Both the position numbers and the translations under genes were made by a program. From positions 1 to 44,795 of the IMG/VR virus record IMGVR_UViG_3300038856_000044: 44,795 nt of DNA. The stretch is one strand, 5' to 3'. The notes under the pieces are model-generated. The model did no database searches and was not told where the DNA came from. It saw only the letters and a program-made list of their open reading frames with translations. The stretch is from a virus. Position 1 is the stretch's first letter. Each line of letters begins with the position of its first letter. Shown here piece by piece: positions 2,344-41,142 of this stretch.

Positions 2344-4062
2344 CTAACTCCCCACCACATTGGCGTCTGCGTCATCGGTCGGACCCGACACCATGACTTG
2401 CTGATCTATTTGCCCAATCCAAAACGGCTCACTCGCACCTGCATGAGCAAAGCGATGACTGACTGTGACCCCGGACCCGACGCCCGGCACGCGATGTCTC
2501 CGTGTGGACTGAGCATCACCCCACGTCATCGTTCCCCAGACCCCAGTACCCCACACTGATCCACCGCTCGGGACCGGAAGCATCGAAGTCTGGCCTTCGT
2601 TCTCTCCGTCATCGAAGAAGAGCGTGTGATTGACTTCGTAGTCTCCGAGCCCCTGCACGGAAATGAACGCATCTCCAGCGTGCTTCTCACGGCTTGGAAT
2701 TCCGTAGTCTTCGTCACGAGTACGGAACTGGCAGTTGATCTCGTTCGTCACGAGGTCGGCATACACGTCTCGTTCGAACCGGACGACTTCACCTGCCGTG
2801 CCGCCAACATAGGGATACGGCTTGCCGTCCGAGCCACGCAGCGGGACAATCCTATTCGCCGTGATGCCGTTCAACTCCCACTTGTACCACCGCACCGTAT
2901 CTGGAGTCAGGCGCTCGACGCCCTTGATGTCCATGCACAGAATGAGGTCATTCGTCGTATTTGAACCCGTAGCAACTGAGAAGAGAACCATTCCCTCCGT
3001 AGGCCAGAACGCACCGGAAACGTACTTGAATCGCGCACGGTTCAGCGAGTCGAATGTCCTTCGAATGGGCCACGACAGGTACTCCGTCACCCGGTAACCA
3101 GCATCCTGAGACATGGCCAGTGAGTGGATGCCATCCCGACTCATGAACACCGCATCTCCGAAGTCTTCCCCGAGGCTCACGAAGGCGTCCTGATTCACGC
3201 ATCCCATCGGAACCGTATCCGAAATCTCGAAGATATTGGCGTTGCTTTCGATCTGCGACGGGGGACGAGGGCGGAACGACACGATTCGCTTGTTGGTCAG
3301 CGCCAACAGAAAGTCGCCACGGTTGTCCGTATACTCGGCCATGCCAGTGGAGTATTCGCTGCCGTAACTCCCTACACCGAAGTTCTCGCCCAGCAGTTGA
3401 CCGGGGATCACGTTAGATGCCTTGTAGTTGGCTGCGACCGTTGCATCGCTCGCGTAATCGCAGTAGCGCCACACCATCGGATTGTCAGTCTGTGTGCTTC
3501 CGTCCAGACCCGCCACGAAGATCATGTTCCACTTGCTGAACACGTACTTCACGTCGAAGCCGAGGGCGACCTTGTCGATCACGCCAGGTGACGCACCCGT
3601 TCCATCCCAGAACCAGAAGCTATCGCCATCGTCACCACCGGCTGCGAACAACTTGTCCTGGAACATGGCGAAGTTCCAATGGAAGTCTGCTCCGTCCGTG
3701 ATCGTCACCGTATTCGTCGTCTTGTCCAGATTGCCGAGCGTCGTGTCAATGAACACGTCACCGCCTGACACAACGACCAGATCCCGCGTCGCATCGTAGT
3801 CACGAATGTACTCATGGATGCCCTGGATGGCATCACCACCAGACAGCGCATCCGGGTAGTCAGAATCTCCATACCGGACGCCTGGACGAGTGCCGGTCAT
3901 CGAGCCCTTGCGAGCGCAGTTGTACGCCAACCGAAGATCGGTCGGGCGAAGAGCCTGCGGGTTCTCGTCTTCGTTGAGTCCACCCAATTCGATGAGCGGA
4001 CGCGCCGACTGATAGCCTGGGCTATTTCGTGCAAACTGTCGTGCAAAGCCACGAATCGGCAT
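2344..4062 (-). CDS. Tail protein, beta-propeller-like (tail hub/nozzle candidate)
   Basis: 572 residues; the ATG follows the preceding gene's TAG directly (TAGATG). Near the N-terminus, ARPLIELGGLNEDENPQALR followed by NCARKGSMTGTRPGVRYGD matches the opening of many podovirus tail proteins that begin with a 'genes/rules' strand and continue as a beta-propeller. The body has repeated short beta segments (VVVSGGDVFID, MFQDKLFAAGG, MIFVAGLDG, FVSLGEDFGDAVFMSRDGIHSL), as expected for propeller blades. The last 100 residues contain GTGVWGTMTWGD. Position after the head-tail adaptor gene supports a tail tube or nozzle role like P22 gp10 or T7 gp12. No assignment to one family is certain. Confidence 0.7.
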   Translation of the reverse strand: MPIRGFARQFARNSPGYQSARPLIELGGLNEDENPQALRPTDLRLAYNCARKGSMTGTRPGVRYGDSDYPDALSGGDAIQGIHEYIRDYDATRDLVVVSGGDVFIDTTLGNLDKTTNTVTITDGADFHWNFAMFQDKLFAAGGDDGDSFWFWDGTGASPGVIDKVALGFDVKYVFSKWNMIFVAGLDGSTQTDNPMVWRYCDYASDATVAANYKASNVIPGQLLGENFGVGSYGSEYSTGMAEYTDNRGDFLLALTNKRIVSFRPRPPSQIESNANIFEISDTVPMGCVNQDAFVSLGEDFGDAVFMSRDGIHSLAMSQDAGYRVTEYLSWPIRRTFDSLNRARFKYVSGAFWPTEGMVLFSVATGSNTTNDLILCMDIKGVERLTPDTVRWYKWELNGITANRIVPLRGSDGKPYPYVGGTAGEVVRFERDVYADLVTNEINCQFRTRDEDYGIPSREKHAGDAFISVQGLGDYEVNHTLFFDDGENEGQTSMLPVPSGGSVWGTGVWGTMTWGDAQSTRRHRVPGVGSGVTVSHRFAHAGASEPFWIGQIDQQVMVSGPTDDADANVVGS

Positions 4063-13411: not shown

Positions 13412-13594
13412 ATGATCCGAATCCTTGCCCTCGTTGCCATCACGGCCATGGCCAGCCTGTACACCTGCTCCGCTCAGTGCACCTGGTGCGGAAATGCCTA
13501 CTGCCTCGATAGCAGCGCATGTTTCCAAGGCTGCGCCTGCATGAAAGACTTCGGCGATGCCTCAGGCGTGTGTGTGCCAGTCAGCCTTGAATAA
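13412..13594 (+). CDS. Secreted cysteine-rich mini-protein, inhibitor-cystine-knot-like
   Basis: 60 residues, ATG at 13412 with AGGAG seven bases upstream; an upstream in-frame ATG at 13370 would bury the signal peptide. Residues 1-21 form a Sec signal peptide (MIRILALVAITAMASLYTCSA, cut predicted after Ala21, with no lipobox). The mature 39 residues hold seven cysteines: C23-x2-C26-x4-C31-x5-C37-x3-C41-x1-C43-x10-C54. The segment C31-LDSSA-C37-FQG-C41-A-C43 has the same spacing as the core of squash-type knottins (C-x5-C-x3-C-x-C). Disulfides would form in the periplasm or outside. The odd cysteine count leaves one free or inter-chain. Target unknown: protease inhibition, membrane action or signalling are all possible. 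Lies in an island between terS and terL. Confidence 0.75.
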   Translation: MIRILALVAITAMASLYTCSAQCTWCGNAYCLDSSACFQGCACMKDFGDASGVCVPVSLE

Positions 13595-30314: not shown

Positions 30315-30476
30315 GTGCGCGGCATCGGATACGGATTGATTGCAACCGGGATCTTCGCTCTAGCTGACACGTTCACGGGTCTATTCCCGGGTGTGGCATG
30401 GTCGCTCCTGATCGTTACAGGGATCGGAGCTAGCCTCACTCCCGAAACCGATTCACGCTCCCGAAATCAGCGTTGA
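30315..30476 (+). CDS. Small membrane protein at the convergent end
   Basis: 53 residues from GTG at 30315 (MRGIGYGLIATGIFALADTF) with GGGGAGGGGGAG upstream. Two short hydrophobic stretches (IATGIFALADTF, GVAWSLLIVTGIGAS) and a polar tail (PETDSRSRNQR). Overlaps the leftward beta-helix gene by 41 bp, so the two operons collide here. Confidence 0.55.
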   Translation: MRGIGYGLIATGIFALADTFTGLFPGVAWSLLIVTGIGASLTPETDSRSRNQR

Positions 30477-31533
30477 TCGTCGCGGGCAACGAAGCGGGCT
30501 TGCCGTAGTCGCGCAGGTCCACGACGCCGTCGGGTCCGTCCCAGCCGACGAAGAGCGCGTCTCTGAAATCGGCCTCGACCCCATCGACCAGTTGAATCCC
30601 CGGCCTCTGCCGCTCCGCTGACCGATGGATGACGCCCCCGATCCAACGGATGTTCTCCGCACGGTAGGACCACTGGATCGGGTTGCGATGCTCCGTCTGG
30701 AGCCATGCGGACTGCGCCGCCCGGACCGTGCAATCCCGGTACGTCACGTCCTTCGCCCAGATCCCATGAGAGTCGTCGAAGCCGTCGAAGGCCACCGGCC
30801 CCTGGTCGTCGTCCCAATTGAGCGACCCCTGTTGCATCATTTCGACGAGATCGCACTTCGTCACGTCCACGCGGACCGGGCAGGTCAGTTTCAGCGCCGC
30901 TTTCACCTCGCCCGAGGTCGTGACGCGAGAGATCGACGAGTCCACGTAGTAGCCGCCCACCGCGTTCGCCCCGATGCCGCGGCGCGGATCGTAGAGCGAG
31001 TTGTAGGCAGGCTCTTTCGGGAAGGCCCACCCGTCCGCGAAGTGCAGCCGGTTCATCGTGATCCAGCGGCAGCGGGGCGTGCCCATCCAGTCGGCCTTCA
31101 CGAGCTGGCGGCAGCGGCGGCCCCACACGTCTTCGAGTGAGATCCCCTGACACGCCTCCATGCGAATCGACGTGTGGGGCAGGTTCTCGAACTGGACGCC
31201 CTCGACCCGGATACCCGTCGAGTAGTACATATCGATCCCGCGAAGGAAACGGGGGTTCCCGGGCGGGATGTGCGGCACGTCGAGAATCGAGTCCCACGGC
31301 CCCACGAACTCACAGTCCGTGATCCGAATGTCTCGGGATCCGGGAGGAAGGGTCAGCATTCCGAAGGCCGTGAGCGGGCTTGTGAGGCCGTAGGGGCGGC
31401 CGAGGGTCGCGGTCGGGAACGTGCGCGGGTAGGGAGTGATCTCGAACCGATAGCCCGCGATCTCGCGCGACCGATTCAGGAGCCATGAGTCCTCGCGGAC
31501 GACCAGTGGCTCGTGGAGTTGAACGGTTTTCAT
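30436..31533 (-). CDS. Right-handed beta-helix protein, cytosolic type (tailspike/depolymerase candidate)
   Basis: 365 residues from ATG at 31533, ATGA overlap with the PEP-CTERM gene. No signal peptide. Pectin-lyase-like coils: IRITDCEFVGPWDSILDVPH, GIRVEGVQFENLPHTSIRME, GISLEDVWGRRCRQLVKADW and ITMNRLHFADGW show the T-x-x-x-C/N-x-F/V rhythm of parallel beta-helices. The C-terminus (FRDALFVGWDGPDGVVDLR) is a capping region. Such folds in phages are tailspikes that bind or cleave surface polysaccharide. It lies after the lysis genes, unlike a classic tailspike, and is noticeably GC-rich. Confidence 0.65.
   Translation of the reverse strand: MKTVQLHEPLVVREDSWLLNRSREIAGYRFEITPYPRTFPTATLGRPYGLTSPLTAFGMLTLPPGSRDIRITDCEFVGPWDSILDVPHIPPGNPRFLRGIDMYYSTGIRVEGVQFENLPHTSIRMEACQGISLEDVWGRRCRQLVKADWMGTPRCRWITMNRLHFADGWAFPKEPAYNSLYDPRRGIGANAVGGYYVDSSISRVTTSGEVKAALKLTCPVRVDVTKCDLVEMMQQGSLNWDDDQGPVAFDGFDDSHGIWAKDVTYRDCTVRAAQSAWLQTEHRNPIQWSYRAENIRWIGGVIHRSAERQRPGIQLVDGVEADFRDALFVGWDGPDGVVDLRDYGKPASLPATINADFGSVNRFRE
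30441..30456. repeat. 16-bp direct repeat, copy B
   Basis: Identical to 30275-30290 and inside the last codons of the 53-residue membrane gene (PETDS). With copy A it encloses most of that gene. Confidence 0.8.
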
Positions 31534-31973
31534 TCGCGGGATCTCCGTTTCCAGAGGGCAATGACCCCCACGGTAATCAAGGCCGTCAACTGCATCTTCC
31601 ACGTCTCCGGCTCAGGCACAGGGATGAGGTTTAAATCCCCCGACCATTCCCCGTCCTCCAGAGGCCGTACAGCCGCTTCTAAGACGAGCGGCACGTCAAG
31701 GGACCACGCGGTACGGATTCCCTGCCCGACGCGCCCAGCGACCTGCACAGGCTCGCTCGTGGGCAGGTCCACGACGATCTGAGTGCAGTCCACCGTGCGG
31801 ACCAGAGCATCGGACAGGTCCACGTCCTCCCATGAGCCGTTACGCTCCTGCCGCATCAGCACCTCGGTATAGGGGGCATGGGGTATGAAGCCCACGAGGT
31901 AGACTTCGGCGCTCGAGGGGCGAGGTGCGGCGAGGGCTGCGAAAAGGGCCAGGAGAGAGAGCCCAACCCTCAC
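31530..31973 (-). CDS. Exported protein with PEP-CTERM sorting signal
   Basis: 147 residues from GTG at 31973 (GTGA overlap). Signal peptide MRVGLSLLALFAALAAPRPS ending SSA before EV (cut near residue 22). Beta-rich middle (EVYLVGFIPHAPYTEVLMRQ, CTQIVVDLPTSEPVQVAGRV). The last 29 residues (119-147) are VPEPETWKM, a hydrophobic helix (LTALITVGVIALW) and KRRSRE: the PEP-CTERM architecture (VPEP, membrane segment, basic tail), processed by a host exosortase. Sits between spanin-side membrane gene and beta-helix gene. May display on the infected cell surface or EPS. Confidence 0.8.
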   Translation of the reverse strand: MRVGLSLLALFAALAAPRPSSAEVYLVGFIPHAPYTEVLMRQERNGSWEDVDLSDALVRTVDCTQIVVDLPTSEPVQVAGRVGQGIRTAWSLDVPLVLEAAVRPLEDGEWSGDLNLIPVPEPETWKMQLTALITVGVIALWKRRSRE

Positions 31974-32263
31974 CGCACCATTCCTACGAAGAGGCCGCCG
32001 AGAGCGCCCCCGGCGACGAACTCAAGCGAATCAAGCGCCGTATCCCCCCACGAGTGGATGGGCCACTGGTCGATCCCTTCGCGGAGGATGACGAGGGGAA
32101 TTGCCGCCAGCGCGCCACCCACCGCCTCGCATCCCGCGAAGTCCCATGCCATGAAACCGGCGAGGATGCCCATGGAGGCCATCATCACGACGGCATGGCC
32201 CAGCGCCTCCCCCGTCTGCTTCCACGGGTCCTCGCGCCATCTATCGCGTAGGCTACGGGGCAT
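31970..32263 (-). CDS. Membrane protein of the lysis block (holin candidate)
   Basis: 97 residues from ATG at 32263 with GGAGGTG upstream. Basic start (MPRSLRDRWREDPWKQTGEA) and three hydrophobic segments (VVMMASMGILAGFMAW, AVGGALAAIPLVILREGIDQ, LEFVAGGALGGLFVGMV). Overlaps the Rz1 gene and follows it. Topology and position fit a holin or antiholin. Confidence 0.6.
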   Translation of the reverse strand: MPRSLRDRWREDPWKQTGEALGHAVVMMASMGILAGFMAWDFAGCEAVGGALAAIPLVILREGIDQWPIHSWGDTALDSLEFVAGGALGGLFVGMVR

Positions 32264-32522
32264 TGCGCACCTCCTCGGCCTCTTCGGGCCAGCAGTAGGC
32301 AACCACCCTCGCCATCCATTCGACGGCGGGGCGATGGCGCCCGGTGCTCACATCGTAGCCCGTCGCGACGATTCGGATGTAATCCCGCGTCTCCACCTCG
32401 TTCGGCTGGGGGCATCGACGTGCGGTAAACACCTCAGTCGCGCAGCCGGTTGAGAACATCCACAGACTGATCGCCAGTGAGAGGAGGACGAGCAGCCTGC
32501 TCCGCCTCTTTGGTCGCTGCAT
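32253..32522 (-). CDS. Outer-membrane lipoprotein spanin (Rz1-like)
   Basis: 89 residues. Basic start and hydrophobic segment (RRSRLLVLLSLAISLWMFST) end in a lipobox-like STGC at Cys27, followed by a small polar domain with Cys, Pro and Arg residues (RRCPQPNEVETRDYIRIVAT). It starts inside the Rz-like gene in another frame (89-bp overlap), the standard nesting of spanin subunits that fuse the inner and outer membranes at lysis. Longer than typical Rz1 (about 60). Confidence 0.75.
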   Translation of the reverse strand: MQRPKRRSRLLVLLSLAISLWMFSTGCATEVFTARRCPQPNEVETRDYIRIVATGYDVSTGRHRPAVEWMARVVAYCWPEEAEEVRNAP

Positions 32523-32652
32523 CCCGCTCCCTCCCTACCTGTTTGCGCTTCTCTAGCTCCCGACCGTGCCTGCGGATCTGGGACCATCCCACCCCGCCTC
32601 CAATCAGGCCCAGCACGAGTAACACGAGTCCGGCTACGATCTCAATGCTCAC
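32434..32652 (-). CDS. Inner-membrane spanin (Rz-like)
   Basis: 72 residues from GTG at 32652, two bases after the preceding stop (MSIEIVAGLVLLVLGLIGGG). Single N-terminal membrane segment, then a basic charged coiled coil (RRHGRELEKRKQVGRERDAA). It overlaps the Rz1-like gene in a different frame. Shorter than classic Rz (about 150), as in many phages with minimal i-spanins. Confidence 0.75.
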   Translation of the reverse strand: MSIEIVAGLVLLVLGLIGGGVGWSQIRRHGRELEKRKQVGRERDAATKEAEQAARPPLTGDQSVDVLNRLRD

Positions 32653-32828: not shown

Positions 32829-33164
32829 TCACACTCCGTATTTGGCCAACCACCACTCGGGCGGCGGGCCGGTTGGTAGACCTTGAACGTGAACGTGGTT
32901 TCCCGACCCCACGTCGTGAACGATGACCCAGAGGCCGAGCCCACGCGCCTTGTTGGCACACTGCTCCAGCCCCGCTTGATCCTTCGCCACGTAGTCGCGT
33001 GCCATGCAGGGCAGAATCGCGTGTTTGCTCATCACATGGCCGCCCACGTCGGCATTGTGCTCTGTGCTGCGGTAGCCCGAGGTCTGCCACACCCACGGAC
33101 AGGACCGCTCCAACTCGCGGCAGGCGGCATCGAACTCGGCGGGCGTGAAGGGTTGGCGGGTCAT
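32829..33164 (-). CDS. Endolysin, peptidase M15 type
   Basis: 111 residues from ATG at 33164 (ATGA overlap). SGYRSTEHNADVGGHVMSKH followed by ILPCMARDYV gives the S-x-H-x7-D zinc site of VanY/D-alanyl-D-alanine peptidase-type endolysins, and GNHVHVQG supplies the last His. Cuts peptidoglycan peptide stems. No signal peptide, so it needs a holin. Small size is normal for the single-domain Gram-negative form. Confidence 0.85.
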   Translation of the reverse strand: MTRQPFTPAEFDAACRELERSCPWVWQTSGYRSTEHNADVGGHVMSKHAILPCMARDYVAKDQAGLEQCANKARGLGLWVIVHDVGSGNHVHVQGLPTGPPPEWWLAKYGV

Positions 33165-33436
33165 TCGACCGGCACCCCGAGCTGCCTGAGAAGCACGTCG
33201 TTGCGCGCCTGACACCGCTGGAGTTTCGTTTCCTTCTCCACGATCAATCCCCCCAAATGCGCGATGTGCTGCTCGGTCCTCTGCACACCCAGCAGGTCCA
33301 ACTGGTCGATGCCAAAATAGGTCAATGCGCTGGCGGCTGCCGCCATGAGGGCCAAATACCCCTTCACGTCAGACACACGGACCTTCTTGCCGTTGCCGCC
33401 CAACTCGAACAGGGTCTTATCGCCCTCAGGGCTCAT
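33161..33436 (-). CDS. Membrane protein with coiled-coil tail
   Basis: 91 residues (MSPEGDKTLFELGGNGKKVR). One hydrophobic segment (GYLALMAAAASALTYFG), then a coiled coil with heptads (LIVEKETKLQRCQARNDVLL). First gene of a run of four membrane-plus-coil genes before the endolysin. Candidate antiholin or spanin-like partner. Confidence 0.65.
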   Translation of the reverse strand: MSPEGDKTLFELGGNGKKVRVSDVKGYLALMAAAASALTYFGIDQLDLLGVQRTEQHIAHLGGLIVEKETKLQRCQARNDVLLRQLGVPVE

Positions 33437-34273: not shown

Positions 34274-37200
34274 TTACGGGCTCACGAAAAACGGAGCGAA
34301 GTACGTCGCCGACGATGCAGCCTCACTAGGCAACGTGCATTCAGGCCACCAGCACTCATTCCCCGCCGTCGATTCCCAATCCACAATCGCTGATTCCTTG
34401 GGCCAAGCGCCCTCATTGGATCCACGATGACCGAACAGATTCCCTCCCGCTCCCTGATACAGCCGTCCAGAGTTGTCGAAGAAGATGAAGTATTCTAGGT
34501 CGTACCCGTCTACGATGTCACGATCGCGCCACGTGTCCAGCGCCGACGTGTAGACCGGAACCAAGCACGAGTCGGCTTCCGTGGTGAGGTCCGCACAGAC
34601 CTGCGTAGACGAATCACTCAGGCTAGAGCCGCCTTCGTAGACGATCATCCCCCAGTCGAGATTGCGATCTGGCGTGCCTCCATCGAGGGCCGTCGCAAGC
34701 TCTGTGATCGAACACCCTGCCCCGTCGCACAGCTTCGGCCCGTTTACGTCAGCCTGTGCAAAATCACATGCGATCTGAGGATCGGGTAGAAACAATGGTT
34801 CAACGCCTGCCTGCGCCGTCGCACAGTCCGCATCCCCACCCAGATACACGTTCACACCAATGAGGTCGATGTCTGCGCCCGTGTAGCAGTTGCCGCTCGG
34901 AGCCGCCGTCCATCGGTCACAGTCAAGTTTGGCCTCCAGTTCCGTGGCTGACGTGGCAACCCGCGTGCCCATCACACAATGAAGGCGGCTTCCTTCACCC
35001 AAGGCATCGAATGCAGCCTGTGCCAGCGCGCACATCTCAAAGGTCCGCTTCGCGTGCCACTGGTTTGCGCAGTCTGCGATAGCCGTACCGCAGTCGGCAC
35101 CGTCCCAGGTCGCCCCCCCGTCATCGGCGGCGAGTGCAGCGGCCGCCGCATGGTCCTGCTGTTCGAACCCTGGATTCCATACCTCATTGGACATTTCCAG
35201 GTAGATCGGGAGCCATGAGTTCACGTTGTCACGGAACGACTCCGCGAATGACGTGATATGCGCGTCCGTAGCTTGCATGGGTATGTTCACGTAACACGCT
35301 GCATTCACGTCATTGCAAAGCCTTGCGATGATTGTGAGCGGCACCGCCCCCAGCGGATCGTGACCGTAGCTCCATGTGTAGTTTGATTCCGGTAGCCATT
35401 CCGAGAAGTCCACCACCTGAGAGTGGTTGATGTGAAGCCAATTCATAAACCGGAGAATGCCGTACTGGCCTAATCGCTGAATCCACAATGGGTGGAATTG
35501 CGGAACGACAGATTGGTTCACTGCGCCTCCGATAGTCTCCAGGTCGTAGCAGAATGGGTCACCGTAGGTGCAAACAGACACGGCATCCGGGCAATCCCCG
35601 TCCGGGCATCTAGCGGTGTCGCAGAAGCTCCCCTCTACAAAGTCGAACGGAGGCGTTCTAGCGCACGCGCCACCGGGAGGATAAAGCCTCATGTTCGACA
35701 CAGAGGTCGGGATAGACGTGATCGCCAGATCGAAGCCGCCCGTTGTCTCGTCCACTGTAAACGTGGCGCGTCCAGCTTCAGTAACCGTGTATTCGCTTGC
35801 GGCTCCGGTCACCGAAAATGTTGCATCTCCATCCCACAACAGAACCCATTGGCCAGTCGGCCACGCGCCATCAGAGTAAGCGCCTGAGAAGAACGACGTA
35901 AACACACAGTTGATACCAGATAGTTCCGTCGGGTAACCGTTTGAGTCGATCGTACCAGCGTAATCTCCGTCCTCATCAAAGCAGGTCGTGTCGCTCTTTT
36001 GCCATCTTCGAGCAGACTTCATGGCATTGACGAACGTCACACGCGGATTCTCCCAACGGTTCCATTCGAGATTCATACCGACCGCGCTAGTCGCGTTGGC
36101 TTCCCAGTCAGGTGTTGACAGCGCGTTCGTCGGCTCTTCGTATGCTCCTGAGTCATACGGCGCACCGCCGCGCGTCACATTACCAAATGCCGTTGGCGCA
36201 CTCAGTGTCGGGTGCCCGGCGTTGACCATCGCGGACGTGCCAGACGCAGCCGATAGGTCTAAATCGTCACGTACCTCGCCGTCTGCATCAGCGAGCCCTG
36301 GGTCAGCGTTAGAACTCTCCTGTCCCCACTGGCTCGAATCGGCGGCCTGGAATGTGGAGAGCGTGTATCCGTCTGACGTAGGCCCCTGCGCCGTACTGAT
36401 CGCCGCGCTCCAGACTTCCGTATGATCCTCATCGAAGCAGAAGTTGTTATCCAGAGCATTGAATGCAGAGAAGTCACCGCTCTCGATGTAGTGCAGGAAG
36501 CAGTTGACCGTTGACGATGTGCTCGCATTGTAGATTACGTTGGATACAACGGTCGCATTCGTACCGACATCGAACGAGTCGTAGCCTGATGGGCTACCCG
36601 CTGGGGTCCCGTTGCAATCCGAGTCGTATGCTTGACCGAGCACGATACCGTTCTTGTTAGACCCAGAGCTACCTTCAGAGAAGTATATTGTGTTGTTTCG
36701 GATGATCGTGTTTGTCTGCGGAGCGTCGTCATCCTTCGTGCAATGGAATTGAGCGTCCATCGGAGCAGCAATCGCATTGACACTGTGGTCCGTCGCGTCA
36801 ATGATGATGTTGTTTTCGATGATGCAGTTCTGGCACGCACCCGTCCCGATTGCCACACGGCCTGCGTTCTCCACCACGTTTCCGCGAATGATGATGTCCG
36901 TAAACACCTCAGACGCGCCATAGCCCTCGTTGACAGTGATGCCGTAGCATTGGCCACCGGAAGCGGCTGGAGTTTCATGGACGTAGTTGTCCTCGATCAA
37001 CACATCCGATGCAGCATTCGTATCTCCAGCATGGAACACAAACGGGGCACCAAGGCATTGACCAATGGTGGAAGATCCGACGCGGTGGTCGATCACTGAA
37101 TTGGTCATCTCGACACGGCGAATCTCGATCCCACTCGTCGGCCTCGAGATATAGATGGAGTGGTCAAATTGCTGATGCGCACCGCCGTTGCCGTCCATGT

Positions 37201-38053
37201 AGAGGTCTTCGAGTAGTCCGTCTCTGAAGCCGCCGAGAATGCCACCGTGCGAATTGTTGAAGAACGAGCTGTTCTTGATCTGGTTGCGCTCGCTCTTGAC
37301 ATTGCAGCCGGGAGGTGGGCTGCCTCCCGTATCGCACACGCCGGACCCCTCGTTGGGGTCGCGGGCGGATACCGCGAAGCGAAAGCCCTCTACGATCATA
37401 TTGTTCAGAATCAGATCGTCCGTGTCCCCCTTGATCTGTATTCCCTCTCCGTTACTGAATTCCGAATCGTCATTCACGTAGTTTCCGTCATGCGGACCTT
37501 CGATGTGGATATTCTCGACGAGGATGTTTCCGCTGCGGCGCGTGTCGTTGAACCATCCAGATTCGTAGAAGGCGAACACACCCAGAACGTTGATCGGGAA
37601 TGCCGTCTGCTTCACATGGGGTCGAGCGTCTGCCGCGATGTTGAATTCTGGATCACTACCAAGCAGGTCTGGAGGGTTCACCGTCAGCGTAAAACGCGGG
37701 TCCAGGTAGTCGCCGATGCGGCATTGCGAACCCGTGACACAGTTCTCATTGTGCCAGATGACGCCCGTGCCTGCGGTCATGTCCTCGGCCCAATAGCCGC
37801 CACGGCAGAACGCCACGCCATCGCCGTCCGATGCGTTAGCCATCCCGTTGAACGTGGTACGTGCCGTCTCCCATTCCCGTTTGGGCGTGGACGGAGTCAA
37901 GCCGTCGTTCGCATCGTCACCGTTTACACAGTTCGGGTCGGATGTCTCTGCCGGATCGGCCGACGTATCGCAGTTGCAGAAGTAGTGTGTCACACCAGCC
38001 GACGCAGACGACGGGACGATCAACAAGAAGATCGCCAGAATCAGCGCGCGCAT
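34274..38053 (-). CDS. Exported beta-helix plus glycosidase fusion (polysaccharide depolymerase candidate)
   Basis: 1259 residues from ATG at 38053 (TGATG overlap); a longer frame passes through the previous gene. Signal peptide MRALILAIFLLIVPSSASA, cut near residue 19. Residues ~20-680 are a right-handed beta-helix: NGDDANDGLTPSTP entry, then coils such as ILVENIHIEG, LILNNMIVEGF, IIENNIIIDATD and IIRNNTIYFS. After a linker, residues ~690-1259 look like a GH-A-type TIM barrel: RFMNWLHINHSQ, MQATDAHITSFAESFRD, then YLEMSNEVWNPGF with Glu957 as acid/base, and MIVYEGGSS with Glu1140 as nucleophile candidate. About thirty cysteines, fitting an oxidising compartment. Probably degrades surface or exopolysaccharide. 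Confidence 0.75.
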   Translation of the reverse strand: MRALILAIFLLIVPSSASAGVTHYFCNCDTSADPAETSDPNCVNGDDANDGLTPSTPKREWETARTTFNGMANASDGDGVAFCRGGYWAEDMTAGTGVIWHNENCVTGSQCRIGDYLDPRFTLTVNPPDLLGSDPEFNIAADARPHVKQTAFPINVLGVFAFYESGWFNDTRRSGNILVENIHIEGPHDGNYVNDDSEFSNGEGIQIKGDTDDLILNNMIVEGFRFAVSARDPNEGSGVCDTGGSPPPGCNVKSERNQIKNSSFFNNSHGGILGGFRDGLLEDLYMDGNGGAHQQFDHSIYISRPTSGIEIRRVEMTNSVIDHRVGSSTIGQCLGAPFVFHAGDTNAASDVLIEDNYVHETPAASGGQCYGITVNEGYGASEVFTDIIIRGNVVENAGRVAIGTGACQNCIIENNIIIDATDHSVNAIAAPMDAQFHCTKDDDAPQTNTIIRNNTIYFSEGSSGSNKNGIVLGQAYDSDCNGTPAGSPSGYDSFDVGTNATVVSNVIYNASTSSTVNCFLHYIESGDFSAFNALDNNFCFDEDHTEVWSAAISTAQGPTSDGYTLSTFQAADSSQWGQESSNADPGLADADGEVRDDLDLSAASGTSAMVNAGHPTLSAPTAFGNVTRGGAPYDSGAYEEPTNALSTPDWEANATSAVGMNLEWNRWENPRVTFVNAMKSARRWQKSDTTCFDEDGDYAGTIDSNGYPTELSGINCVFTSFFSGAYSDGAWPTGQWVLLWDGDATFSVTGAASEYTVTEAGRATFTVDETTGGFDLAITSIPTSVSNMRLYPPGGACARTPPFDFVEGSFCDTARCPDGDCPDAVSVCTYGDPFCYDLETIGGAVNQSVVPQFHPLWIQRLGQYGILRFMNWLHINHSQVVDFSEWLPESNYTWSYGHDPLGAVPLTIIARLCNDVNAACYVNIPMQATDAHITSFAESFRDNVNSWLPIYLEMSNEVWNPGFEQQDHAAAAALAADDGGATWDGADCGTAIADCANQWHAKRTFEMCALAQAAFDALGEGSRLHCVMGTRVATSATELEAKLDCDRWTAAPSGNCYTGADIDLIGVNVYLGGDADCATAQAGVEPLFLPDPQIACDFAQADVNGPKLCDGAGCSITELATALDGGTPDRNLDWGMIVYEGGSSLSDSSTQVCADLTTEADSCLVPVYTSALDTWRDRDIVDGYDLEYFIFFDNSGRLYQGAGGNLFGHRGSNEGAWPKESAIVDWESTAGNECWWPECTLPSEAASSATYFAPFFVSP

Positions 38054-38814
38054 CACGGAGAAGCACTCAACTGGACGCCCCACCATACTTCCGATGCAAC
38101 CGTTCCGTCCTTGCATGTCCATTCGATCCCCGCATCCGATTCGAACCATGTGTCCCCCACCGTGCAGGCATTCCCGGCAGCGGGCGTGGCGGTTGAGACT
38201 GTGCGAGACAGCACTTCCGTCTCCAGCACCACCGCTGTGGGCAGCCTGCCAGTTGCCACCGTTCCCGATGTCAATTCGGTAGCACTCATGTCCGTTATCC
38301 CCACGCCACCACCGCTGAATTCAGTAGCCGATAGCGTCCCGCTCGATGGGTTGTAGGTGAGTTCTCCGTCTGACTCAGGAGCTAGATTTCCACCATCGAG
38401 ATCTCCGCCAGGAGTAAACAGCAAAGCGTTAGTCTCATTCGTTGCTTCGTTATCGGCAATCGTGACCGTAGCGGCCAGAGTGGCAGATGCAGCCGTCGTT
38501 GCAGAGGCGGCGGTGGCAACAGAAAGGCTTGCCTCGTCTGACTCAAGCAGGAAATCTTCATCGGTCGTCACGGCATTGATCTTTGCTGCCGTGTCCCACT
38601 GTGAAGCAATAGTGGCTGTCGTTCCCGCCTCAATGTCGTCAATGTCTGTCGCGTTGTCATCTACAGACGCCTTGATCTCATCTATGTCCGCACCGTAAAA
38701 TGTGTCCACGCCATCATCGTATGTGCCGTCTCCGCCATCGTTCACCCATGTGATGCCGTCTGCGAAGGCTGGAGGCGCAACCATTACCATGAGCATCAGA
38801 ATCCAGAGTCTCAT
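38053..38814 (-). CDS. Exported fibre-like protein
   Basis: 253 residues from ATG at 38814, signal peptide MRLWILMLMVMVAPPAFA before DGITW. Low-complexity Ala, Thr, Ser, Asp and Val rich fibre body (SVATAASATTAASATLAATV, ATEFSGGGVGITDMSATELT), then a small C-terminal domain with paired Cys (NACTVGDTWFESDAG, IEWTCKDGT). Shaft plus tip layout matches phage fibre ends, but the signal peptide implies export before assembly or a role on the host surface. Confidence 0.65.
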   Translation of the reverse strand: MRLWILMLMVMVAPPAFADGITWVNDGGDGTYDDGVDTFYGADIDEIKASVDDNATDIDDIEAGTTATIASQWDTAAKINAVTTDEDFLLESDEASLSVATAASATTAASATLAATVTIADNEATNETNALLFTPGGDLDGGNLAPESDGELTYNPSSGTLSATEFSGGGVGITDMSATELTSGTVATGRLPTAVVLETEVLSRTVSTATPAAGNACTVGDTWFESDAGIEWTCKDGTVASEVWWGVQLSASP

Positions 38815-38815
38815 G

Positions 38816-38977
38816 CTAACCCCCTACCAAGCACGGAATTGCAGCGGGTATGGCACACCCAGTCGATGCAGGAGGAGTTCCTGAGACCTGTTCGCCACCG
38901 CTCACCATCGAGATATTGGCTCCGACGAGCACCGCTGCGGCAAGAGTCAATGCTACGAATAGAAGTATGCGTTTCAC
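38816..38977 (-). CDS. Small exported peptide
   Basis: 53 residues from GTG at 38977 (MKRILLFVALTLAAAVLVGA), GAGGAGAC before it and GTGA overlap. Signal peptide or membrane anchor, then a short polar tail with two cysteines (TGCAIPAAIPCLVGG). Could be a processed peptide of about 30 residues or a membrane-bound chaperone. Confidence 0.55.
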   Translation of the reverse strand: MKRILLFVALTLAAAVLVGANISMVSGGEQVSGTPPASTGCAIPAAIPCLVGG

Positions 38978-41142
38978 GGCGTCTCCTCGACCCACGTTCC
39001 CGATCGGCCGAGCGTGCGCCATGTCGTCGAGTCTGTGACGTAAATGCAAATGTAGTCTCCGATGCCACCGGGCGAGTCGATGTCCTCATCGTTCGCTGCG
39101 GAGACGCCGTCGAGGATGAAGTTGTCCGCGCTGTTGGGAGACAGTGAAATGATGCCCGTCCCAGCCACGTCCATGAAACACTTGGTCGCGCCCACCGGTA
39201 AAGAGGCCGCGAGAGGAAGCGTGATCGTCACCGCGCCCGCGCCGCTATCCGATAGCTCCAGCATCGTGCCGTTGATGTCACGCGGAGTGAGCGTAATCGA
39301 CGTTCCCGAGTCGCGTGTCGGGACGAGGTTGCCCGATGTGAAGACACTCTGCCCCACCGTGGTCTGATACACGTCCGGCGTAGTGCCGCGATATTCGATG
39401 TACCCAAACGGTCCGAAGTTGAGCGTGTAGTGGGACTCGGCATCCTGCATCCCTGTTCCGTCCACCACGTCGTTATCGGCCAAGTCGCCATAGTCGGCGA
39501 TGTCAGCAAAGTTCGAACCGTCGCCGATCTGGAGTTCGTAATAGGCGCTGTCCACCGTGCCGTTCACGTCATCCTGAACAGAGAAGATTGGGAATCGATT
39601 TGCACCGGAGCCCGTGATGTCCGTATCGGTTGCCAGTGAACCGAATAGCGCCACGCCGATATCTGGAATGTGGTCGTAGAACGAGAACGAGTTATAGGAG
39701 CCGGACCGCATGAGGCCGCGCGTGCAGAAGTTTCCAACGCGGCGGATATAGCCCGTTACGCCCTGCGTGGCGTCGAAGCCCGCATCGAGGAACCAGTCTC
39801 GGTCGCTTGAGCTGTAACAATTCGCGTCACCCGTCCGGTACGTCCCGATCGTTTCGAGCGCGAATGCACCGCCAAGTATGTTTCCCAGTGAGCCATAGAT
39901 CAGCTTGATTTCGCCAGTGAGCGTAAGCGGCTGCTCAGACGTGAGAACGTTCGAGTCTACCTGAATATCGTAGAAGCCACCTTCGTCGTCGATGGTCGAT
40001 GTGTTGAAGTACCGAGGGCCGTCTGCATGAATGTGAACCGTCGAAGAATCGTCGCCGTCCACGTCCGGCTCGATGAGGACCGCACCCGCCGCATCGAACT
40101 GGATGCCGTCATCGAGGATCAGGGACGTGGTATCAACGCCAACCTTGATCGCTCGGTCATCGACGAATGAGAAGGGCTGACTCGCTGCGCTACCCCCAGC
40201 CGTTTCCGATTGCGCTCCGAACTTCACGCCGAACACGTATGCCCGGCCCCCATACTTGGCTCCTGATGTACCCGTTCGCAAGCGTTCGTTGTTTACACAC
40301 AGCCCCTTCCTACCGCACGATGACGCTCCGAACGCATCACACGTATCGATGTCGTTGTTGATCGTCCCGTTGGTCACGATCACGTCATAGTCGTGGCTAA
40401 CGCCCTGACATCCCTCCGTTCCTTCGTAATAGCCAGCCGTACCACCACACGTCCCATTCACGTTGCCCAGATTCACTAGAACTGCACAGCCCTCCCAGTC
40501 GCCAGCGACGGTCGGATCGACTCTTCGATTGATGAAGTGGCCGCCGAGGTCGATCACATAACGAGGCTGTTCGGCTCCACCCACGGGCAAATTGAATGTC
40601 AGGGGCGTGGTTGCGGTCGGGTCGTTCACGAATTCATCTGCGAGGACGATGTGGACCTGATGCGGAAGCGTGTCCGAGATCGTTTTGTCCAAACTCCGCA
40701 GCGTGCCTTCGATCTCGGCCTCCGAGGCAATCGAGATCGGCCCGCCTCCGCTCGTTCCAATCTGAGTATTGGAACACCGGATAATCAGTTTGCTTCCGCC
40801 ACTGGCCCCATCGCCTACGACCTTCAGTCCTTCCTGTGCGGGAGTCACCTGAATGGCAGCTTCCGTAGTGGCTGTGAAGGTGTAGACCGCTGTGCCACTT
40901 GCAGCGGCCGTGGTCGCAGTTGGGACCTGGTACACGGTCACGGTATCCGAACCTCCCTGAATGAAGGACATCGCACAACGTCCTGCACCCGGTATGATGT
41001 CCGAATCCGCCGTGTCACCCGCAGCGAATGTGATCGTAACCGTAAACGCATCCGTCGTCGGTGATACGATCGTCGATGGCTTTCCCCATGCTGTGCTTGC
41101 CATCAGGCAGAGCATCAGCACCAGGACCAAATATCTCATCAT
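38974..41142 (-). CDS. Exported beta-structural protein (fibre/spike-like)
   Basis: 722 residues, GAGGAG upstream; a second ATG at 41139 gives the same signal peptide (MRYLVLVLMLCLMASTAWG). Beta-rich with segments typical of beta-helix or fibre proteins (YVIDLGGHFINRRVDP, DVIVTNGTINNDIDTC, GFYDIQVDSNVLTSEQPLTL). The C-terminal 110 residues (TSITLTPRDINGTMLELSDS, AGAVTITLPLAASLPVGATK) resemble a phage fibre tip repeated in environmental phages. At least 14 cysteines spread in pairs. First gene of the exported block after the ejection proteins. Confidence 0.7.
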   Translation of the reverse strand: MMRYLVLVLMLCLMASTAWGKPSTIVSPTTDAFTVTITFAAGDTADSDIIPGAGRCAMSFIQGGSDTVTVYQVPTATTAAASGTAVYTFTATTEAAIQVTPAQEGLKVVGDGASGGSKLIIRCSNTQIGTSGGGPISIASEAEIEGTLRSLDKTISDTLPHQVHIVLADEFVNDPTATTPLTFNLPVGGAEQPRYVIDLGGHFINRRVDPTVAGDWEGCAVLVNLGNVNGTCGGTAGYYEGTEGCQGVSHDYDVIVTNGTINNDIDTCDAFGASSCGRKGLCVNNERLRTGTSGAKYGGRAYVFGVKFGAQSETAGGSAASQPFSFVDDRAIKVGVDTTSLILDDGIQFDAAGAVLIEPDVDGDDSSTVHIHADGPRYFNTSTIDDEGGFYDIQVDSNVLTSEQPLTLTGEIKLIYGSLGNILGGAFALETIGTYRTGDANCYSSSDRDWFLDAGFDATQGVTGYIRRVGNFCTRGLMRSGSYNSFSFYDHIPDIGVALFGSLATDTDITGSGANRFPIFSVQDDVNGTVDSAYYELQIGDGSNFADIADYGDLADNDVVDGTGMQDAESHYTLNFGPFGYIEYRGTTPDVYQTTVGQSVFTSGNLVPTRDSGTSITLTPRDINGTMLELSDSGAGAVTITLPLAASLPVGATKCFMDVAGTGIISLSPNSADNFILDGVSAANDEDIDSPGGIGDYICIYVTDSTTWRTLGRSGTWVEETP

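Follow-up and report, generated by a model that had tools for sequence, protein, structure and literature searches.

Can a phage gene encode a protein that is sorted by the exosortase of its host? In bacteria, PEP-CTERM proteins are exported through Sec and held in the inner membrane by a C-terminal tail until the exosortase cuts; these substrates are linked to exopolysaccharide (EPS) and biofilm, and after cleavage they act in contacts between the surface and EPS (PMC12188702, PMC3237569). So far, this kind of sorting is known from hosts, where it serves surface proteins linked to EPS. The window, i.e., the whole stretch of DNA analyzed here, is a source record of 44,795 bp with a G+C content of 58.6% (IMG/VR virus record IMGVR_UViG_3300038856_000044). 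Pfam and PHROGs profile searches found a portal, a major capsid protein, a RuvC-like resolvase, an endolysin and spanins encoded on it; these genes mark it as a genuine contig of a tailed phage. The gene in question and the two genes that adjoin it are as follows:

31530–31973, minus strand: coding sequence of 147 aa, secreted protein with a PEP-CTERM-like tail (overlaps with both neighbors; codon log-odds)
31970–32263, minus strand: two-TM holin-like protein, the upstream coupled gene (ORF; GTGA overlap)
30436–31533, minus strand: 365-aa appendage-like protein, the downstream coupled gene (ATGA overlap)

The original prediction had placed a 147-residue ORF at 31530–31973, and these coordinates are right; the gene lies on the minus strand, starts with GTG (31973–31971), ends with TGA (31532–31530) and is coupled on both sides. 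Its start overlaps the stop codon of the holin-like gene within GTGA (31970–31973), and its stop overlaps the ATG of the 365-aa gene, a product with no database match, within ATGA (31530–31533). In addition, its frame has the best codon log-odds of all six. The overlaps on both sides and the codon log-odds together identify a real gene and not a chance ORF. The product can be divided into the following parts:

31908–31973, minus strand: signal peptide, residues 1–22, MRVGLSLLALFAALAAPRPSSA, without a lipobox cysteine (sequence and heuristic SPI scan)
31620–31907, minus strand: body, residues 23–118, predicted all-beta with low confidence (AlphaFold2 on the single sequence, mean pLDDT 57.8)
31608–31619, minus strand: VPEP motif, residues 119–122 (sequence; aligned in NF038126 and in our own tail HMM)
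31551–31595, minus strand: hydrophobic helix, residues 127–141, MQLTALITVGVIALW (sequence, Kyte-Doolittle scan)
31533–31550, minus strand: basic C-terminus KRRSRE, residues 142–147 (sequence)

As predicted originally, the product begins with a signal peptide. This is SPI-like, both by sequence and by a heuristic scan, and it has no lipobox cysteine; MRVGLSLLALFAALAAPRPSSA is followed by EVYLVG, where the cleavage site between residues 22 and 23 is our own reading and the heuristic SPI scan places cleavage earlier. An N-terminal signal peptide is what a PEP-CTERM substrate is expected to have: by rule, PEP-CTERM proteins always carry one (PMC3237569). The C-terminal end of the product is IPVPEPETWKMQLTALITVGVIALWKRRSRE, and the tail within it, VPEPETWKMQLTALITVGVIALWKRRSRE, consists of VPEPETW, then a helix, then KRRSRE, which is the order Pro-Glu-Pro, helix and terminal basic cluster that characterizes PEP-CTERM tails. 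The predicted tail is thus present by inspection and by the Kyte-Doolittle scan, and the observation of the ORF with its tail is confirmed. The helix is short, with Lys and Gln at its start. For the body, searches returned no relative in Pfam, PHROGs or PDB and no homologue in IMG/VR or among sequenced phages; folds predicted from single sequences were of poor quality (pLDDT 58 and 46), and Foldseek gave no match below E 0.09.

We then compared the tail to curated profiles. PF07589 gave 7.9 bits against a cut-off of 20.7, and TIGR02595 did not report the tail; it is therefore not filed as a formal PEP-CTERM member, and this outcome is one half of what the original prediction had named as its refutation. 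The best curated match was to NF038126 (FxDxF PEP-CTERM family), the C-terminal end of which aligns to residues 107–139 with 24.8 bits and E 2.2e-5; this match covers model positions 130–162 of 165, and the whole-protein cut-off of 50 bits is not reached. Such scores raise the question of whether a small membrane-anchored protein could have VPEP in front of its helix by chance. The missed curated cut-offs point in this direction, and VPEP alone is not very rare near C-termini, being found 18–30 aa from the end in 5 of the 9,732 six-frame ORF C-termini of the window and related contigs. However, the full combination of PEP, hydrophobic stretch and basic end was limited to the window ORF and one related-phage ORF in approximately 0.95 Mb of viral contigs, both related and distant, and the E-value of the NF038126 end match speaks against coincidence as well. 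Our own tail HMM placed the window tail at or near the top of the 9,732 ORF ends (E 1.8e-5 without the relative). It should be noted that this model is partly circular, since its training tails were chosen by VPEPxTW, a motif taken from the window tail itself; with the xTW positions masked, the result is weaker, and the window tail is still first (E 0.016). In the shuffled control, the best scores were at most 12.7 bits, versus 23 for the tail. Given these controls, we regard a chance origin of the motif as very improbable.

A second set of evidence comes from the position of the gene, which is surrounded by lysis and appendage genes:

32253–32522, minus strand: o-spanin-like lipoprotein with an FSTGC lipobox, overlapping the i-spanin gene (sequence)
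32434–32652, minus strand: i-spanin, Rz-like (PHROGs Rz-like spanin, E 0.009; 50% identical to that of the related phage)
32829–33215, minus strand: endolysin, peptidase M15_3 (Pfam PF08291, 28 bits against a cut-off of 23.2)
34274–38056, minus strand: 1260-aa appendage protein with a signal peptide (signal scan; weak beta-helix matches)
38053–38814, minus strand: 253-aa appendage protein with a signal peptide (signal scan; phrog_34255, E 4e-8)
38974–41142, minus strand: 722-aa appendage protein with a signal peptide (N-terminal domain common to both relatives)

The holin-like protein resembles L008:8863–9126 of the related phage, by eye only (REGIDQWPIHSWGD and VREFDQRPVASWGD, respectively). 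By eye, too, the 1260-aa protein has LEMSNEVWN...MIVYEGG motifs like those of clan-A glycoside hydrolases, with no database match. Because the 147-aa gene lies inside the lysis/appendage operon, it is probably expressed late.

This neighborhood suggests the chief rival explanation, namely, an accessory of the lysis cassette: a protein of the periplasm whose C-terminal helix serves as its inner-membrane anchor, functionally similar to a u-spanin or a lysis regulator, with a VPEP motif that is not read by any sortase. The 147-aa gene comes directly after the genes for the spanins and the holin-like protein, with coupling to the last of these, and an export signal, a beta-rich body and a C-terminal TMD (here, hydrophobic residues 127–141) correspond to the general topology of u-spanins (PMC6139136), as exemplified by the unimolecular spanin T1 gp11, which likewise is encoded near lysis genes. 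Unlike these spanins, the window protein lacks the lipobox cysteine that defines them (there is no Cys in its first 60 residues), it has one periplasmic Cys, compared to none in 58 u-spanins (PMC6139136), and it is encoded beside a two-component spanin pair. The u-spanin version fails because of the absent lipobox and the existing pair. The lysis accessory, moreover, explains the neighborhood, but neither the recurrence of the tail in viral contigs nor the PEP-CTERM tail above cut-off in a relative (see below), and we consider it rather unlikely.

Using the capsid protein as a query, we found two larger relatives (79% identical), G003 (29 kb) and G004 (43 kb), which are collinear with the window through the head genes; the terminases of the window and G004 are 56% identical. 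Scans with spanin and spike alignments returned known relatives only. A homologue of the 147-aa protein is absent from both genomes, and the lysis region was not found in G003, which is a fragment. G004, between its spike gene and its lysis cassette, contains a 97-aa ORF with the C-terminal end NAIAVPEPLSVGLLAGALALCALGRRRRAR, which passes the TIGR02595 cut-off (20.1–21.8 bits versus 16) and has no similarity to the body of the window protein. This comparison, with a non-homologous ORF that has a PEP-CTERM tail at the same spike/lysis module, is the strongest support for a sorting function of the window tail. Conversely, the G004 ORF has no signal peptide, contrary to the PEP-CTERM rule, and this counts against such a function. 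In the relative, the 792-aa spike gene ends with a TAG that shares the reading frame of the PEP-CTERM ORF and is separated from the ATG of the latter by three codons (L008 10835–10849). We considered recoding or stop suppression at this TAG and rejected it: no tRNA genes were found, and TAG serves as an ordinary stop (10 of 31 genes). The in-frame TAG is thus only a curiosity, and no conclusion is built on read-through.

We further scanned IMG/VR with a strict DNA pattern for VPEPxTW...RRR, which matched 45 contigs (in the range L103–L146). Approximately 36 of these encode clear PEP-CTERM proteins, mostly with signal peptides; some of these contigs may be host flanks of proviruses. In L114, a P22-like portal is encoded on the same strand approximately 3 kb upstream of the PEP-CTERM gene; L140 is identical to L114 in DNA, and L117 carries a homologue. 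Elsewhere, PEP-CTERM genes lie near a terminase (L111), a lambda-type portal (L115), a head-decoration match (L126) and a RecE-like exonuclease (L109). All representatives scanned with profiles (L114, L109, L111 and L126) passed the NF035944 cut-off. The PEPxxWA-CTERM proteins of L114, L140, L117, L126, L109 and L111 resemble the window protein in being encoded on phage contigs and in having a signal peptide and a VPEPxTW tail; they differ from it in their bodies and phage lineages, in their head/packaging or moron-like positions outside a lysis cassette, and in their tails, which have a standard helix and RRR. Five phage PEP-CTERM proteins, including that of the window, had no relatives among 50,697 phage records, the window protein showing chance-level matches only, and searches of the open PMC literature returned no description of PEP-CTERM proteins encoded by phages. 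Thus, the statement that such tails are hardly ever reported in phages holds for the literature and for the 50,697 phage records, but not for metagenomic phages, given the approximately 36 proteins in 45 viral contigs. Judged by sequence, the PEP-CTERM theme recurs in phages, and it looks like an unreported class of phage cargo.

A further rival explanation is that the window gene is a captured host gene (moron), with a tail that still functions but without a specific part in the phage cycle. The bodies are unrelated between the window and its relative, and several PEP-CTERM genes of other phages have the opposite orientation to their neighbors, as morons do. A moron, however, has a transcription unit of its own, whereas overlaps of 4 nt with each neighbor lock the window gene into an operon, and a captured gene therefore appears to us quite unlikely.

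No exosortase was noticed in the phage contig, so the window protein would depend on that of the host. The terminase alignment matched one genome contig, that of a related phage, 58% identical, in a Thermoanaerobaculia (Acidobacteriota) metagenome-assembled genome (MAG; G007). This 9.1-Mb MAG, which may be mixed or misbinned, has at least four real PEP-CTERM tails, and the only exosortase detected in it is XrtH (TIGR04177, 93.6 versus 86). XrtH pairs with IPTLxxWG-CTERM and not with PEP-CTERM. In the class Thermoanaerobaculia, 69 of 101 genomes score above the cut-off for an exosortase family; real PEP-CTERM tails are rare there, and most TIGR02595 matches are not at C-termini, for which reason this class was not accepted as the host class. 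The same contrast, between a common exosortase-family gene and real PEP-CTERM tails that are few or absent, was observed in Thermoanaerobaculia genomes as a side result (L094 and the class of G007). The claim that the tail narrows the host to a bacterium with exosortase is therefore reasonable but unproved, the sole bacterial lead being a MAG with XrtH.

Taking these comparisons together, we consider it on balance probable that the 147-aa gene encodes a phage-made substrate of the host exosortase, which would work like a PEP-CTERM protein. This reading is supported by a gene that is real, is coupled to its neighbors within a lysis/appendage operon and encodes both the signal peptide and the PEP/helix/basic tail, by the NF038126 end match, by the rank in our own tail HMM, by the G004 tail above the TIGR02595 cut-off, and by recurrence in viral contigs. 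Against it count the failed PF07589 and TIGR02595 cut-offs, the Lys and Gln in a short helix, and the only linked MAG, which has an exosortase of the XrtH type and belongs to a class mostly without real PEP-CTERM tails. The protein shares with the PEP-CTERM/exosortase (EpsH) system (PF07589, TIGR02595, NF038126) the signal peptide, an unrelated body and the succession of PEP, helix and basic cluster; the differences are that this substrate is encoded by a phage, within a lysis operon, and that its tail is below the curated cut-offs.

If an exosortase substrate is indeed made, its translation would occur late and jointly with that of the lysis and appendage genes, by way of the observed stop/start coupling; its signal peptide would route it through Sec and then be removed. 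By analogy with the known PEP-CTERM pathway, the VPEP-helix-basic tail would retain the protein, as a substrate, in the inner membrane, whereupon the host exosortase would cut off the tail and the body would pass to the cell surface or the exopolysaccharide. We infer surface or EPS display on this basis. The beta-rich body, along with other secreted proteins of the appendage region, might then alter the surface or EPS, for example, by helping progeny release or by blocking adsorption to infected cells and debris, although this last step is speculative. The initial interpretation of an exosortase-sorted phage protein is thus partly supported. If it is true, phages exploit exosortase sorting to change the surface of lysogens or of the cells that they infect. 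The phage substrates would then be useful as a natural set to be tried in exosortase assays, and as a marker of host range where phages are uncultured.

A broader version, which we put forward tentatively and consider rather unlikely, is that this phage group runs a secretion program, with Sec signals on appendage-region proteins in three of three sampled genomes and with PEP-CTERM-tailed proteins that coat or remodel the EPS of infected cells by means of the host exosortase; exosortase substrates would then be recurrent, unreported cargo of environmental phages. The PEP-CTERM proteins would be separate or perhaps, in the relative, a read-through extension of the secreted spike. Clear Sec signal peptides were seen on appendage/spike-region proteins of the window (34274–38056, 38053–38814 and 38974–41142, minus strand) and of both relatives (L008 14091–15665 and 15656–18235; L010 1–1270), which is odd because virion parts assemble in the cytoplasm.

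Two further observations concern other parts of the window. In the tail module, the product of 2344–4062 (minus strand) has a match to a PHROG labeled amidase (E 1e-14); its position suggests a tail protein, and the amidase label may be wrong or partial. At 13412–13594, a plus-strand gene amid minus-strand genes encodes a cysteine-rich product of 60 aa that has a signal peptide.
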